DNA of 64,000 bases, taken from the NCBI RefSeq assembly GCF_018881715.1, contig NZ_JACVPW010000013.1, positions 124,001-188,000 of the forward strand, in the 5' to 3' direction. How positions within the stretch are numbered: the stretch's first letter is position 1; each line of letters begins with the position of its first letter. This document shows, piece after piece, positions 56,666 to 64,000 of the stretch. Under the pieces are notes generated by a model. That model did not search any database. It saw only the letters and a list, made by a program, of their open reading frames with translations, and had not been told where the DNA came from. This DNA is from Polynucleobacter parvulilacunae (lineage in GTDB: Bacteria; Pseudomonadota; Gammaproteobacteria; Burkholderiales; Burkholderiaceae). The position numbers were made by a program, and so were the translations under genes.

Positions 56666-57847
56666 TTGAATATACTTCTTAAAATGTATAGGTCGAAAGC
56701 TTCTTGTTTGTTCTGCGGAGTTCTTCTGGGGATCTTATTTTGCCGAAATGCGCTCTCTCAGGACTCGCCAACCCCTCTGAATGATGGTCTTGGATTAAAC
56801 CCAGCGCCTCTCAGTGTGGCGGTACCTCACTTTGGACAAATTGATTTTCATGCACTGGCAACCGGTATTGGAATGGCGCAAACCAACCCAGCTTTGGGCG
56901 ACTTTAATTCCTTGTTTGATATATCAAATGCCCAGGTGATTGTCCAAAAAGGAAGCGGCCTGCTGCAGTTTTATGTGCAGGCTGGCTACTATTCAACCCC
57001 ATCCCTTGGTACGACTTACCAGCGCGCTAGTCAGCAAACAAAAGATAGTTTTGGTTTGGCACCCCTGGCATCAGTCTCGATCGCACCGAATGATTCCTGG
57101 GTTTTTAGTGCGGGGAAAATTAATTCATTTGGGGGCTATGAAAATACCTTTACATATCAAAATATCAATATTGATAGAGGATTACTGTGGAATCAAACAA
57201 GTAACATAAGTAAAGGTTTTCAGGCCAGCTATAAGAGTGGCAATCTTGCTACAGCCATTACTTTGAATGATGGCTTTTATTCAAATCAGTTGAGCTGGAT
57301 GGGGGCCTCTGCAAGTTACCAATTAAACCAAAATCATAATATCGGTCTAATTTGGGCTGGTTCAATAAAGGCGAGCTCAACCAATAGTTTTATTACGCCG
57401 GTGGCGCAAAATAATTCTCAAATAGTAAATGCTATTTATACCTACGCCTCTAGTCGCTGGTCTTTCACGCCTTATCTGCAATATACCTATGTGCCCATCA
57501 ACCCATCTATCGGCATTCTTTCTGGCGCACAAACTTCAGGTGCTGCGGTTTTGGCGAATTATCGACTGACTGGTAACAAAGGAAATGGAATTACATTACC
57601 GACGCGCTTCGAATATATTAGTTCGGCTGGTAAGGGTAATGCGAGCTCACCAAACCTTTTGTATGGTGTTGGAAGTGCTGCTTGGTCTGCGACTATCACC
57701 CCTACATATCAATATGAACGCTTATTTATTCGAGGTGAGCTATCGTATGTTCAAGCAATCAATTCAGGCCTTGGCCAAGCTTTTGGCCAGTCGGGCAATG
57801 CAAAAAATCAAGCAAGAGTAATGGTGGAGGCTGGAATGCTGTACTAG
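56666..57847 (+). CDS. Outer membrane beta-barrel protein (393 aa)
   Basis: A porin-like barrel. The signal peptide ends in NALSQ (about 33). The mature chain consists of amphipathic strands (LLQFYVQAGYYS, WVFSAGKINSFGGYENTFTYQN, TPYLQYTYVP, LFIRGELSYVQAI) and ends VMVEAGMLY with a terminal aromatic residue. GGYENTFTYQNINIDRG resembles the large barrel of the Bbp/OmpL-type family. The start is TTG at 56666 (GAGG upstream); an ATG at 56684 is an alternative. Monocistronic, on the opposite strand from its neighbours; function unknown. Confidence 0.75.
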   Translation: MNILLKMYRSKASCLFCGVLLGILFCRNALSQDSPTPLNDGLGLNPAPLSVAVPHFGQIDFHALATGIGMAQTNPALGDFNSLFDISNAQVIVQKGSGLLQFYVQAGYYSTPSLGTTYQRASQQTKDSFGLAPLASVSIAPNDSWVFSAGKINSFGGYENTFTYQNINIDRGLLWNQTSNISKGFQASYKSGNLATAITLNDGFYSNQLSWMGASASYQLNQNHNIGLIWAGSIKASSTNSFITPVAQNNSQIVNAIYTYASSRWSFTPYLQYTYVPINPSIGILSGAQTSGAAVLANYRLTGNKGNGITLPTRFEYISSAGKGNASSPNLLYGVGSAAWSATITPTYQYERLFIRGELSYVQAINSGLGQAFGQSGNAKNQARVMVEAGMLY

Positions 57848-57871: not shown

Positions 57872-58180
57872 TTACTTATTTGGAAGCTTGCAGGAGTCTA
57901 GTAGTGCCGCCGAAAATGCTGAAGTAATGTTTCTGCGAAGATATTGTGGGTGATCATTAATCCATGCCACAAAGTAGTTATTGGATTTCTCTACGCTCCA
58001 ACCAGGCTGGCATTGACTGGCAATACTCTGATTGGCATTCAAATATCTGCCAAGATATATTTCTTGCTGTTCGGTTGTAACCATCAGGTAGCCCGAAGCT
58101 GTATCTACATCCATCATAGGCTGCGCTTGCAATGTAGATGAAAGAAAGAAAAGTGTAACTAGTAAATAAGTCCTGTACAT
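57872..58180 (-). CDS. Exported Rap1a/Tai-like small protein
   Basis: A 102-residue secreted protein from the ATG at 58180 (AAAGAGG upstream; the frame reaches 58201). The signal peptide ends LQAQ. The mature domain pattern is G-Y-L near the start, C-Q-P-G-W mid-chain, then WINDHPQYLRRN and SAALLDSC at the end, matching how I remember Rap1a/Tai immunity-like domains (two cysteines linked, C-x-P, then a long helix with HP). Such proteins occur widely in Burkholderiales without T6SS genes; none is here. It is last in an apparent operon with a barrel and a carbonic anhydrase. Confidence 0.62.
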   Translation of the reverse strand: MYRTYLLVTLFFLSSTLQAQPMMDVDTASGYLMVTTEQQEIYLGRYLNANQSIASQCQPGWSVEKSNNYFVAWINDHPQYLRRNITSAFSAALLDSCKLPNK

Positions 58181-58190
58181 AACGCCTCTT

Positions 58191-59489
58191 TTAGAATGCA
58201 AACGGTAAGTCGTATTTCAGATTAACCCCAATCGTTTGTGAATTGGAGTTAATGTATTTATTTTCTTTTCGGTAGCCGATGGCTGCTTTAATGCCATTGC
58301 TAAATACATAGCCCAAAGCAATTTGCGCTTGATTATTTCTATCATTAAAGTAGTTATTAGATGGGATGATCTTATAGCCATTACTTACTCGAGACCAATT
58401 TGTGTCCCAAAGACTGGCAGAAAGACCTAAATTCCACTGTTTATAGCCGAACAAGAAGGATCCTGTGTAATAGCTTTTGTCGTAACCACTAATTCCTTCG
58501 GAATTTAGGGTGCGATTGTATTCAAAAAGCGGGGTGAGTTTGATTGATGACCCTAAATCAATTTTGTCCCACATTGCAGCGGCTACGTAACGCTGTTCAT
58601 TGGCTAAATATTGACTAGATACCGGCTGGTTTGTATCGGTGTTGTAGAGGCTTTGGGTTGTTAGTTTGACGGCCGCCACTTGATAGCGAAATTTGGGCAA
58701 GTCTTTAATTTTTAGGCCATCTAAGGCTACGGCATAGTTATTAAATTTACCAGTGTTAGCAGGCCCACCAACGCTAAGGGGAGTGGGATCTTTTGAGGAG
58801 CCAAAGCTATCAGATAGGGCGCTTGTATCAACCATGAATGCAGATCCTGAAAGAGCATGGTTACCATAACGCCCGAAGTCCATTTTGTAGGAGCCGCCCA
58901 AGATCATCATGCCATCGACACCATACTCTTTGCGAATTAAGGTGCTCCCCCATAAGCCAGCGGAATACATTTTGGCCAAAGAATAGTTGATGCTTGCATG
59001 ACCAGCTACTAAGGAGTAGTTATCGGCGTCGTAGCGTAAAGCAAGCTCTGCGATGAACGCGGAGCCTGAATCAATGAAATAGTTTTCAGTGGTATTGCTG
59101 CCGCTAGAGCTTGAATAACGAAAATTTCCTGATAGGTAAAAGTCTTCAGTGAAATAGGCGTTTCCCATAACATAGGCTCTGCCATAGCTATTCATGGGTT
59201 GGTTATTTAGGTTTTTCCCATCGTAGGTGTCTTCCGTAAATAAAGATACGCCCATTCGCCCCTGAATGATAGGGCGACTTAAGAGTTCATCCTTAATAAT
59301 TTCTTCTTTAATGCTGGGTTTTGGGGTTCCGGCAGGCCCACCTTCTGCAGTCAGAGGGGTAGTGCTTGTAGTGCTGACTGAAACGCTAGCTTCTGGAGCA
59401 GGTTGAGCGTAAGAAACTCCAATAAGCAAAAATGAGGCGAGAAAAAAAGAAGGCCTTAATAGTGGGCCACAGAGTTTTTGGTGAGGCAT
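58191..59489 (-). CDS. Outer membrane beta-barrel protein (432 aa)
   Basis: A large barrel with signal peptide ending SYAQ (about 29) and a Ser/Thr/Pro-rich linker with EASVSVSTTST (30-60). Barrel strands include GRMGVSLFTEDTY, MGNAYFTEDFYLSGNFRYSSSS, AELALRYDADNYSLVAGHASIN and a C-terminal GVNLKYDLPFAF ending in Phe. I recognise no transporter family. It is 43 bp downstream of the carbonic anhydrase and 10 bp upstream of the Rap1a-like gene on the same strand, so the three are probably co-transcribed. Confidence 0.78.
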   Translation of the reverse strand: MPHQKLCGPLLRPSFFLASFLLIGVSYAQPAPEASVSVSTTSTTPLTAEGGPAGTPKPSIKEEIIKDELLSRPIIQGRMGVSLFTEDTYDGKNLNNQPMNSYGRAYVMGNAYFTEDFYLSGNFRYSSSSGSNTTENYFIDSGSAFIAELALRYDADNYSLVAGHASINYSLAKMYSAGLWGSTLIRKEYGVDGMMILGGSYKMDFGRYGNHALSGSAFMVDTSALSDSFGSSKDPTPLSVGGPANTGKFNNYAVALDGLKIKDLPKFRYQVAAVKLTTQSLYNTDTNQPVSSQYLANEQRYVAAAMWDKIDLGSSIKLTPLFEYNRTLNSEGISGYDKSYYTGSFLFGYKQWNLGLSASLWDTNWSRVSNGYKIIPSNNYFNDRNNQAQIALGYVFSNGIKAAIGYRKENKYINSNSQTIGVNLKYDLPFAF

Positions 59490-59532
59490 TTAATAAATAT
59501 GTCTGAAAAATCGCTTTCTTATGCAGTAAGGC

Positions 59533-60258
59533 TTATCTCCAAATCACCTTTCCTGTTGAGGTATCGTATATTGCGCCGACTATCTTTAACTTCCCATGAC
59601 TTTCAAGGTTTGAAAGTATGGCGCTGTTAGCTCGAATATTGGCAATAGAATCATCTACATTGATCTCAGTGACTTCGTTGACAAATGTATAATTTTTGCC
59701 ATTGTGTTCACCGGGTGCTTTCGACATCTGTACTGCCGGTTTAATTTTTTCAAGTAACCCCGTAAGATTGCCCATTTCCACTCCATCACACGCACCTTTT
59801 ATTGCACCGCAATTGGTATGACCCAAAACTACAATGAGCGGGGCGCCTGCAACTTTTGCTCCATATTCAAGGCTTCCGAGTATGTCTTTATTAATTACGT
59901 TGCCAGCCACTCGGTTTGAAAAAATATCACCCGTGCTTTGATCGAAAATGATCTCGGGGCCACTGCGTGAATCCATACAGGCCACAATATTGGCCAATGG
60001 GTACTGGCCTAAGGCTGTTTGGGTAACTAATTTTTTAACATCACGCTGCAATGTTTTTCCTGATTGGTAGCGTACATTTCCAGCTTTTAGTATTTGAATA
60101 GCCTGTTCTGGGGATATTCCAGCCTGCACAGACCTGGTCATCGTGATGCCAGGTTGATAAGGGGTTATCTTGATCGGCGCATTAGATTCTTCCGCGGCAA
60201 AAGAAATACTAGATAAGCAAATACATAAGCCTGAAAGAATCACGGGTAAATACTTCAT
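59533..60258 (-). CDS. Exported beta-class carbonic anhydrase
   Basis: A zinc enzyme interconverting CO2 and bicarbonate. It has 241 residues with Sec signal MKYLPVILSGLCICLSSISFA, so it should act in the periplasm. Zinc ligands Cys94, His147 and Cys150 and the Asp96-Arg98 dyad (CMDSR, GHTNCGA) are intact, so it is probably active. Most bacterial beta-CAs are cytoplasmic; exported forms occur in some Gram-negatives. It starts an apparent operon with a barrel protein and a Rap1a-like protein. The divergent molybdenum hydroxylase begins 179 bp away. Confidence 0.9.
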   Translation of the reverse strand: MKYLPVILSGLCICLSSISFAAEESNAPIKITPYQPGITMTRSVQAGISPEQAIQILKAGNVRYQSGKTLQRDVKKLVTQTALGQYPLANIVACMDSRSGPEIIFDQSTGDIFSNRVAGNVINKDILGSLEYGAKVAGAPLIVVLGHTNCGAIKGACDGVEMGNLTGLLEKIKPAVQMSKAPGEHNGKNYTFVNEVTEINVDDSIANIRANSAILSNLESHGKLKIVGAIYDTSTGKVIWR

Positions 60259-60437
60259 ATAGGCATTCCTGATGGTGATGATTGCTATCTGTAAGTGTTG
60301 ATTATAAAAGGCTAAATAATATAAATCCGATAAATCTATCGTAAGTATTTGTCGGATTTATATCAATTTCGACAGTTAAAATTAGTCAATATGTAAAGGT
60401 AAAAAATCACCTTTTTTGATTAAGTAGAGGAGAAGTC

Positions 60438-63095: not shown

Positions 63096-63128
63096 TGCGC
63101 TAAAGAAGTGCCCAGTATTTTTGATATC

Positions 63129-63163
63129 AATCCACCCAATGCATTATTGGGTGGATTTTTTAC
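63129..63163 (+). terminator. Terminator after the molybdenum hydroxylase genes
   Basis: Perfect 12-bp stem AATCCACCCAAT/ATTGGGTGGATT with loop GCATT and a T run; a strong end for the hydroxylase transcript. Confidence 0.93.
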
Positions 63164-63180
63164 ATCCTAGAAGGAGTGTT

Positions 63181-64000
63181 ATGCCCACAGTCAGTCAATA
63201 TAAAAAACTAGTCCTAAGTATTGGAGTGGTAGTTGGTGCTCTCTCTACATCAGCATTGGCATGGGGTCCAACTGGTCACCAGACTACTGGCTATATTGCT
63301 CAGTCGCTATTAACGCCTGAAGTACAGATTCGCTTAAATGAAATTATGCCTGCTGCTGATTTGGGGCAAGTAGCTACATGGATGGATGATGAGCGCTTAA
63401 ATTTGAAGAAAACCATTCCGGATTCTGCTCAATGGCATTTTTATAATCTGCCAGTTTGTGACAACAAACCCAAGAAAGACCTTTGCAAAAATAATAATTG
63501 CGCAATTTACCGGATTGATGAGTATTCACAAGTCTTGGCTGATCCAAAAGCCAGCAAGGAAGACAAAATATTTGCTGTTCGCGTCATTGTTCATGTTGTG
63601 GGCGACCTACATCAACCCTTGCACGCTGGGGATAATGGCGACAGGGGTGGTAACCAGCTTAAGGTGGGTGAGCATACAAACCTTCATTCCACTTGGGATA
63701 AGGCCTATGTTCAAAAGATGGCTAGAGGCAAAACATCCAAGGAGTTTGCTCAGGAAATTAGAGACAGAAATGCCGATAAGATTGAGATTTGGCAGGCGGG
63801 TGACGCGCTAAATTGGGCGAATGAATCCAATCAAGCAGCAAGATCAGTAGCCTATGGCCAGCTTCCCAACTTTTCATGTGATGTTGTTTATCTACATGTC
63901 GACTCGCCATCAAAGTCATATGAATATAAAGCGCAGAAGGTGATCGAGCAGCGCCTTGCTATGGCTGGATCTAGAATTGCTTTTGTGCTCAACACTGCGC
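63181..64000 (+). CDS. Secreted S1/P1-type nuclease, 3' end cut by window
   Basis: A partial gene open to the window's end, with 273 codons visible. The N-terminus TVSQYKKLVLSIGVVVGALSTSALA is a Sec signal, cleaved before W-G, making Trp the mature N-terminus as in zinc-trinuclear S1/P1 nucleases. Metal ligands are visible: HQ in WGPTGHQ, WMDDE, HFYN, HVVGDLHQPLH...D and LHSTWD. These enzymes cut single-stranded DNA and RNA and act as 3'-nucleotidases. The ATG has AAGGAG upstream. Likely a nutrient-scavenging nuclease in the periplasm; the length beyond the window is unknown. Confidence 0.9.
   Translation, partial: MPTVSQYKKLVLSIGVVVGALSTSALAWGPTGHQTTGYIAQSLLTPEVQIRLNEIMPAADLGQVATWMDDERLNLKKTIPDSAQWHFYNLPVCDNKPKKDLCKNNNCAIYRIDEYSQVLADPKASKEDKIFAVRVIVHVVGDLHQPLHAGDNGDRGGNQLKVGEHTNLHSTWDKAYVQKMARGKTSKEFAQEIRDRNADKIEIWQAGDALNWANESNQAARSVAYGQLPNFSCDVVYLHVDSPSKSYEYKAQKVIEQRLAMAGSRIAFVLNTA

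Follow-up and report, generated by a model that had tools for sequence, protein, structure and literature searches.

A carbonic anhydrase gene block with a porin-like barrel of an unnamed, operon-bound family in Polynucleobacter parvulilacunae

RESULTS

A block of three closely spaced genes and a convergent porin gene

Can a Gram-negative bacterium devote an operon to inorganic carbon in its outer envelope, with a carbonic anhydrase (CA) and a porin of its own? This question is raised by a locus of Polynucleobacter parvulilacunae on contig 13 of a 2.07-Mb genome, within the stretch of 64,000 nucleotides that we analyzed (here called the window). A sequence-only reading of this DNA had proposed that a periplasmic β-CA, a β-barrel, and a small two-cysteine protein form a unit for handling bicarbonate or CO2. 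We found the three genes on the minus strand where that reading had placed them, with intergenic gaps of 43 bp (CA to barrel) and 10 bp (barrel to small protein). No minus-strand terminator-like site was found between them in a scan that returned fewer such sites than its own shuffles. The length of the small protein is counted from an ATG, a start at an upstream TTG giving an ORF of 109 aa. The BBP2 gene that converges on the three is probably part of the same conserved block (Table 1). Compared with relatives, the CA, barrel, small protein, and BBP2 genes had pN values of 0.19 to 0.29 and pS values of 0.76 to 0.87, with saturated synonymous sites, and since pN was well below pS we regard all four as real genes.

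TABLE 1 Features of the gene block and its upstream region, in window positions
Feature	Position	Strand	Evidence
β-Carbonic anhydrase (CA), exported-type, PRK15219 subfamily, 241 aa	59533..60258	-	Pfam and NCBIfam over cut-off; CMDSR, HTNC
Porin-like barrel, unnamed family, 432 aa	58191..59489	-	Over no family cut-off; kin by profile
Small exported-type two-cysteine protein, 102 aa, Rap1a/Tai4/HdeA-like predicted fold	57872..58180	-	AF2 model and structural matches
BBP2 (OmpL-like) porin	56666..57847	+	PF07642, 5e-46; ~60% identical gene at the same place in L003
Inverted repeat, 22-nt arms, 11-nt spacer, possible operator	60314..60368	.	Upstream of CA gene

The inverted repeat, whose arms are 86% complementary, separates the CA gene from molybdenum-hydroxylase-type genes that run divergently from it, and shares sequence with a weak promoter-like site (60366-60338). 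Its position makes it a possible operator shared by the CA and molybdenum-hydroxylase genes. The regions upstream of the CA genes of a congener (G090) and of a related locus (L004), both described below, showed no repeat of this kind.

The carbonic anhydrase has intact zinc-ligand motifs

The CA matched the Pfam family Pro_CA (E = 5.5e-39) and scored 246 bits against a cut-off of 221 with the NCBIfam model of the PRK15219 subfamily (NF011765). Both zinc-ligand motifs are intact, CMDSR starting at residue 94 and HTNC at residue 147, and the nearest solved β-CAs aligned with it were 2a5v and 1ym3. A Sec-like signal peptide, judged by eye, suggests that the protein is exported. The earlier description of an active-looking exported β-CA thus holds on both family models and both motifs, with its activity predicted. 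The exported Salmonella Mig-5 is a member of the same subfamily, but no described member with a porin gene was found in literature titles and abstracts. The window genome has a second CA gene, on contig 1.

The small protein resembles Tai4 and Rap1a in predicted fold

The small protein, described before as exported and carrying two cysteines, does have both cysteines (Cys57 and Cys97) and, by eye, an export signal. The likeness to Rap1a/Tai claimed for it did not hold by sequence, the Rap1a/Tai model PF18602 giving 14.1 bits against a cut-off of 27.7 (E = 0.071), with weak matches in two of three members; the predicted fold lends it some support. When an AF2 model (pLDDT 81.6) was compared with 140 chains, Tai4 (Z 9.2 and 8.7) and Rap1a (8.5 and 8.4) came out on top, followed by HdeA (6.5) and YmgD (6.1), although Z values of this size can be reached by chance among helical folds and the identity to the Tai4, Rap1a, and HdeA matches was 9 to 16%. 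Foldseek with the predicted model gave no match under E = 0.001, HdeA being first at E = 1.5, and a profile search of solved structures found nothing. We take the likeness seriously despite the warning about chance levels, because the top four matches belong to one family and that family had been named from the sequence beforehand.

The protein thus may share with Tai4/Rap1a and HdeA a helical fold, as predicted, along with a putative export signal and two cysteines, but differs from them by its low identity, a sequence model below cut-off, and the lack of an effector gene seen beside it. For Rap1a, a disulfide that apparently is required for folding has been reported (PMC3852654). No amidase effector (Tae4) was found among the neighbors run against Pfam, and a role in immunity is for this reason unlikely. 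In all three close loci, i.e., the window and two further loci (L003 and L004), the small protein gene follows the barrel gene.

The barrel belongs to an unnamed family with operon-bound clades

The barrel had been described as being of unknown family, and it indeed reached no cut-off of any family model in Pfam, NCBIfam, or PHROGs. The only match to a porin model, KdgM with 13.9 bits (Pfam cut-off, 22), does not place it in a known porin family, and one of its distant kin nearly reached Porin_4 (26.8 versus 27 bits). Its strand pattern, signal peptide, and C-terminal Phe, together with the weak Porin_4 matches of distant kin, point to an outer-membrane barrel topology. An AF2 model built from four sequences had a pLDDT of 31.5, did not yield a fold, and was therefore not used in fold comparisons. 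Nine barrels compared by profile with solved structures gave nothing convincing, and a tblastn search of plasmids for the barrel gave no match.

Remote kin were found by profile in 5 further genomes of the 369 searched in the class and in 3 further of 299 in the phylum, one of the latter, a weak match in G1377 (4.5e-4; locus L070) that fits Porin_4, being left out of the tree and the counts. Among 113 genomes taken around G1054, 11 matched the barrel family at 12 places; around G1263, 5 of 104 did. The window barrel gave E = 4e-21 against a barrel from a zinc-uptake (znu) operon, with 28% identity over most of the barrel, and E = 3e-17 against one from a copper operon, each in a single pairwise comparison, with a profile match of 1.9e-28; these values argue for common descent with the metal-operon clades.

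The kin stand in a small number of gene contexts. In the znu clade, from two bacterial families (f90 and f214), the barrel gene stands behind znuB in 12 of 12 loci (L063, 7409-8560, and L091-L101), and in the copper clade genes for a multicopper oxidase, the barrel, and SCO1 stand in a row in 5 of 5 (L068, 5149-8334, and L102-L105), counts that are not of independent events because both samples hold close relatives. The full set znuA-zur-znuC-znuB-barrel is present in 10 of the 12 znu loci, the remaining 2 being cut by contig ends. A row of glycosyltransferase 2, PIG-L deacetylase, GH18 hydrolase, and barrel genes was found in both loci of a further kind (L005, 1553-6807; L059, 8527-13807); its gene content is exopolysaccharide-like. 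Three other barrels (L060-L062) lie near ABC-transporter genes, two of them (L060 and L062) divergent from a PSCyt1-type gene, and another (L069) adjoins sugar-ABC and GH4 genes.

In a tree of 26 barrels, each labelled context formed one group, the CA group with a support of 100/100; the joining of the CA and copper groups may be a long-branch artifact, and L069 is a very long branch. The tree includes one partial protein (L101) and two sequences from one genome that contain X residues (L099 and L100), and the label "cyt" of L061 was assigned by kinship, its own upstream gene being different. The clades of the family stay bound to one kind of operon each, namely znuCB, multicopper oxidase-SCO1, or glycosyltransferase-PIG-L-GH18. 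What is new here is that the window barrel is a member of an unnamed porin-like family with such operon-bound clades.

Acidity marks the metal clades and not the CA clade

Within the aligned barrel domain, the three CA-clade barrels have net charges of +2 (window), +2, and +3 with 1 to 2 His, versus -19 to -39 for the other 23 barrels and, in the znu clade, -22 to -39 with 13 to 19 His. The znuCB barrels, which come from small-genome relatives in the class, are thus homologous to the window barrel and likewise tied to one operon, but they are strongly acidic and His-rich and sit in a zinc-uptake operon. With its net +2, and with no metal-uptake or cuproenzyme operon genes among the neighbors scanned, the window barrel does not fit the metal clades. 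As controls, nine other outer-membrane-type proteins of the window genus, several of them named by reading only, had -1.2 to +2.2 charges per 100 aa, and the surroundings of the three znu loci examined were neutral to basic. Because of both controls, we consider that acidity marks the metal clades and that the charge of the CA clade is ordinary for its genus. Charge as a proof of anion selectivity was dropped for the same reason, near-neutral outer-membrane proteins being usual in the genus.

The block is rare but conserved in a second genome

Searches for the barrel gave matches in 1 of 121 genomes of the genus, in 1 of 398 of the family (with a three-sequence profile), and, among 149 relatives of the L003 genome, in that genome only; for the small protein, 1 of 300 genomes of the order matched. 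Short exact peptide patterns, which miss divergent copies, were run against 84,980 species genomes and picked out three loci: L003 and L004, and L005 as a remote one.

L003, a contig of a metagenome-assembled genome (MAG), has the barrel (61% identical), the small protein (57%), and the convergent BBP2 gene (60%) in the same order as the window. The contig starts inside the gene preceding the barrel; its first 42 bases encode AIYDTSCGKVIWR and a stop, 46 bp before the barrel. This tail, AIYDTSCGKVIWR, shares 12 of the 13 last residues with the end of the window CA, AIYDTSTGKVIWR and a stop. The three CA genes found in this MAG are on other contigs and differ from the gene of the tail; an initial view that the CA is unlinked in L003 was based on them and was overturned by the 13-residue tail. 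Beyond BBP2, the flanks differ: L003 continues with genes for an EamA transporter and a spermidine-synthase-like protein, the window with genes for a 175-aa protein and a Phenol_MetA_deg barrel.

In L004 (1-7367), the order is an exported-type CA, a nucleoside hydrolase on the opposite strand, the barrel, the small protein, and a 5′-nucleotidase, with the CA, barrel, and small protein (41%, 58%, and 60% identical to those of the window) lying within 4 kb. The L004 CA scores below the PRK15219 cut-off and is of another subfamily, and BBP2 is not among the genes listed on this contig. The bin of L004 is labelled Bacteroidetes, yet two CAs of the L003 genome share 57 and 63% identity with the L004 CA, and this likeness to the CAs of the L003 genome and of the window genus suggests that mis-binning is likely. 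The block of CA, barrel, and small protein genes with the convergent BBP2 gene is, accordingly, real, rare, and conserved.

Related carbonic anhydrases of the genus stand without the barrel

CA matches at E < 1e-25 were found in 10 of 121 genus genomes, including the window genome, and the barrel was absent around the CA in all of the other 9, some of them represented by short contigs, as expected from the genus-wide search for the barrel. One of them, G090, has a 71% identical CA at the same chromosomal place, as judged by shared neighbors (a dehydratase, a barrel, and a 175-aa protein), with a U32 peptidase gene standing where the window has the barrel, the small protein, and BBP2. The CA can therefore be kept without the rest of the block. 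By eye, 7 of the 9 related CAs have twin-arginine N-termini, that of G090 is of Sec type, and that of G059 has no signal. The expectation that the three genes are linked in other genomes thus stood for L003, with the CA tail, and loosely for L004, but not for these nine congeners.

In one locus of the genus (L040, 6222-8602), a twin-arginine CA gene is immediately preceded by a gene for a SulP-type permease. CA-SulP pairs are a known bicarbonate-transport arrangement, and this one is likely a bicarbonate-uptake pair. The window locus is similar in that a CA adjoins a membrane passage protein, but the partner is a putative outer-membrane barrel and not an inner-membrane permease.

DISCUSSION

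The best single reading of the locus, to which we give a probability of only about 0.4, is an envelope inorganic-carbon module with its own porin. The three genes would be cotranscribed and their products would act together: the exported zinc β-CA would speed the interconversion of CO2 and HCO3- in the periplasm, the barrel would be an outer-membrane porin tied to the operon that helps a small solute across, either neutral or anionic and in the simplest case bicarbonate, and the Rap1a/HdeA-fold protein would be an accessory or chaperone in the periplasm with a disulfide bond. A role of the barrel and the small protein in handling CO2 or bicarbonate is what we infer from several observations: the tight gene spacing, the order kept with the CA tail in L003 though the flanks beyond BBP2 differ, the proximity of the three genes in L004 even with a CA of another subfamily, the binding of barrel clades to operons, a CA clade that is not acidic and His-rich like the metal clades, and the related CA directly behind a SulP-type permease elsewhere in the genus. 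Against it stand the G090 ortholog and eight further related CAs of the genus without the barrel, the nucleoside hydrolase gene that splits the CA from the barrel in L004, a near-neutral charge that is ordinary in the genus and so no proof of anion selectivity, and the small number of close loci known, only three. CO2 also needs no carrier to cross a membrane, and bicarbonate should get through general porins. A wider version, in which each clade of the porin family specializes in the solute that its operon handles (zinc, copper, sugar, or bicarbonate) and the CA clade is an outer-membrane bicarbonate porin working with the periplasmic CA, is rather unlikely.

The kinship of the barrel also allows it to be a metal porin through which the exported CA, an enzyme that requires zinc, receives this metal; its relatives in znu and copper operons may serve their own metals in the same way. 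Its homology to both kinds of barrel, and their constant places behind znuB and between the multicopper oxidase and SCO1, agree with this, but the charge and His content of the CA clade do not, nor is there any Zur or znu gene among the ORFs listed for 54-64 kb of the window, and we consider it quite unlikely. The charge pattern weakens this zinc hypothesis more than it proves a bicarbonate pore. L004, where the barrel and the small protein stand between a nucleoside hydrolase and a 5′-nucleotidase, suggests instead that the two serve nucleic-acid or nucleotide scavenging with the CA as a neighbor by history, and an S1/P1 nuclease gene lies about 3 kb beyond the CA in the window (63121-63999); this is unlikely in view of L003, which has no nucleotide-use gene among the genes listed or scanned and whose CA tail adjoins the barrel. 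The same locus speaks against a chance neighborhood whose genes spread together, linked but with no shared function: its gene order persists at ~60% identity, with synonymous sites saturated and the flanks changed, and an exported CA is near the barrel in three of three close loci. G090, with its CA alone, and the barrel and small protein genes, which are closer partners of each other than of the CA, fit such a history, which we consider rather unlikely.

Two further hypotheses start from the small protein. It could be an HdeA-like chaperone in an acid or pH-stress unit in which the CA buffers the periplasm, given that HdeA and YmgD rank after Tai4/Rap1a in the structural matches and that periplasmic CA has been described as taking part in the acid acclimation of Helicobacter pylori; but a Z of 6.5 can be at chance level for helical proteins and the barrel is left without a part to play, which makes this distinctly unlikely. 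That it is a type VI amidase immunity protein with unrelated neighbors would fit the top fold matches and the weak PF18602 matches but not the absence of an amidase effector among the neighbors run against Pfam or the constancy of the barrel as its partner, and is very improbable.

As for precedents, searches of 5.39 million open papers gave no CA-porin operon in a title or an abstract, so the earlier remark that no described example was known still applies within that scope. CopB and PcoB are outer-membrane partners of multicopper oxidases and offer a parallel as operon-bound outer-membrane barrels beside a periplasmic enzyme, but the copper-operon barrel of the present family has no match to a Pfam model and so cannot be equated with CopB.

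If the envelope inorganic-carbon module is real, the entry of inorganic carbon in Gram-negative bacteria would have a dedicated outer-membrane step coupled to a periplasmic CA, a step for which free diffusion is usually taken to suffice. Independently of the function of the CA clade, the znu-clade barrel is a candidate zinc porin because it is always behind znuB in the loci read, and the barrel family is thereby a testable candidate for TonB-free passage of zinc through the outer membrane.
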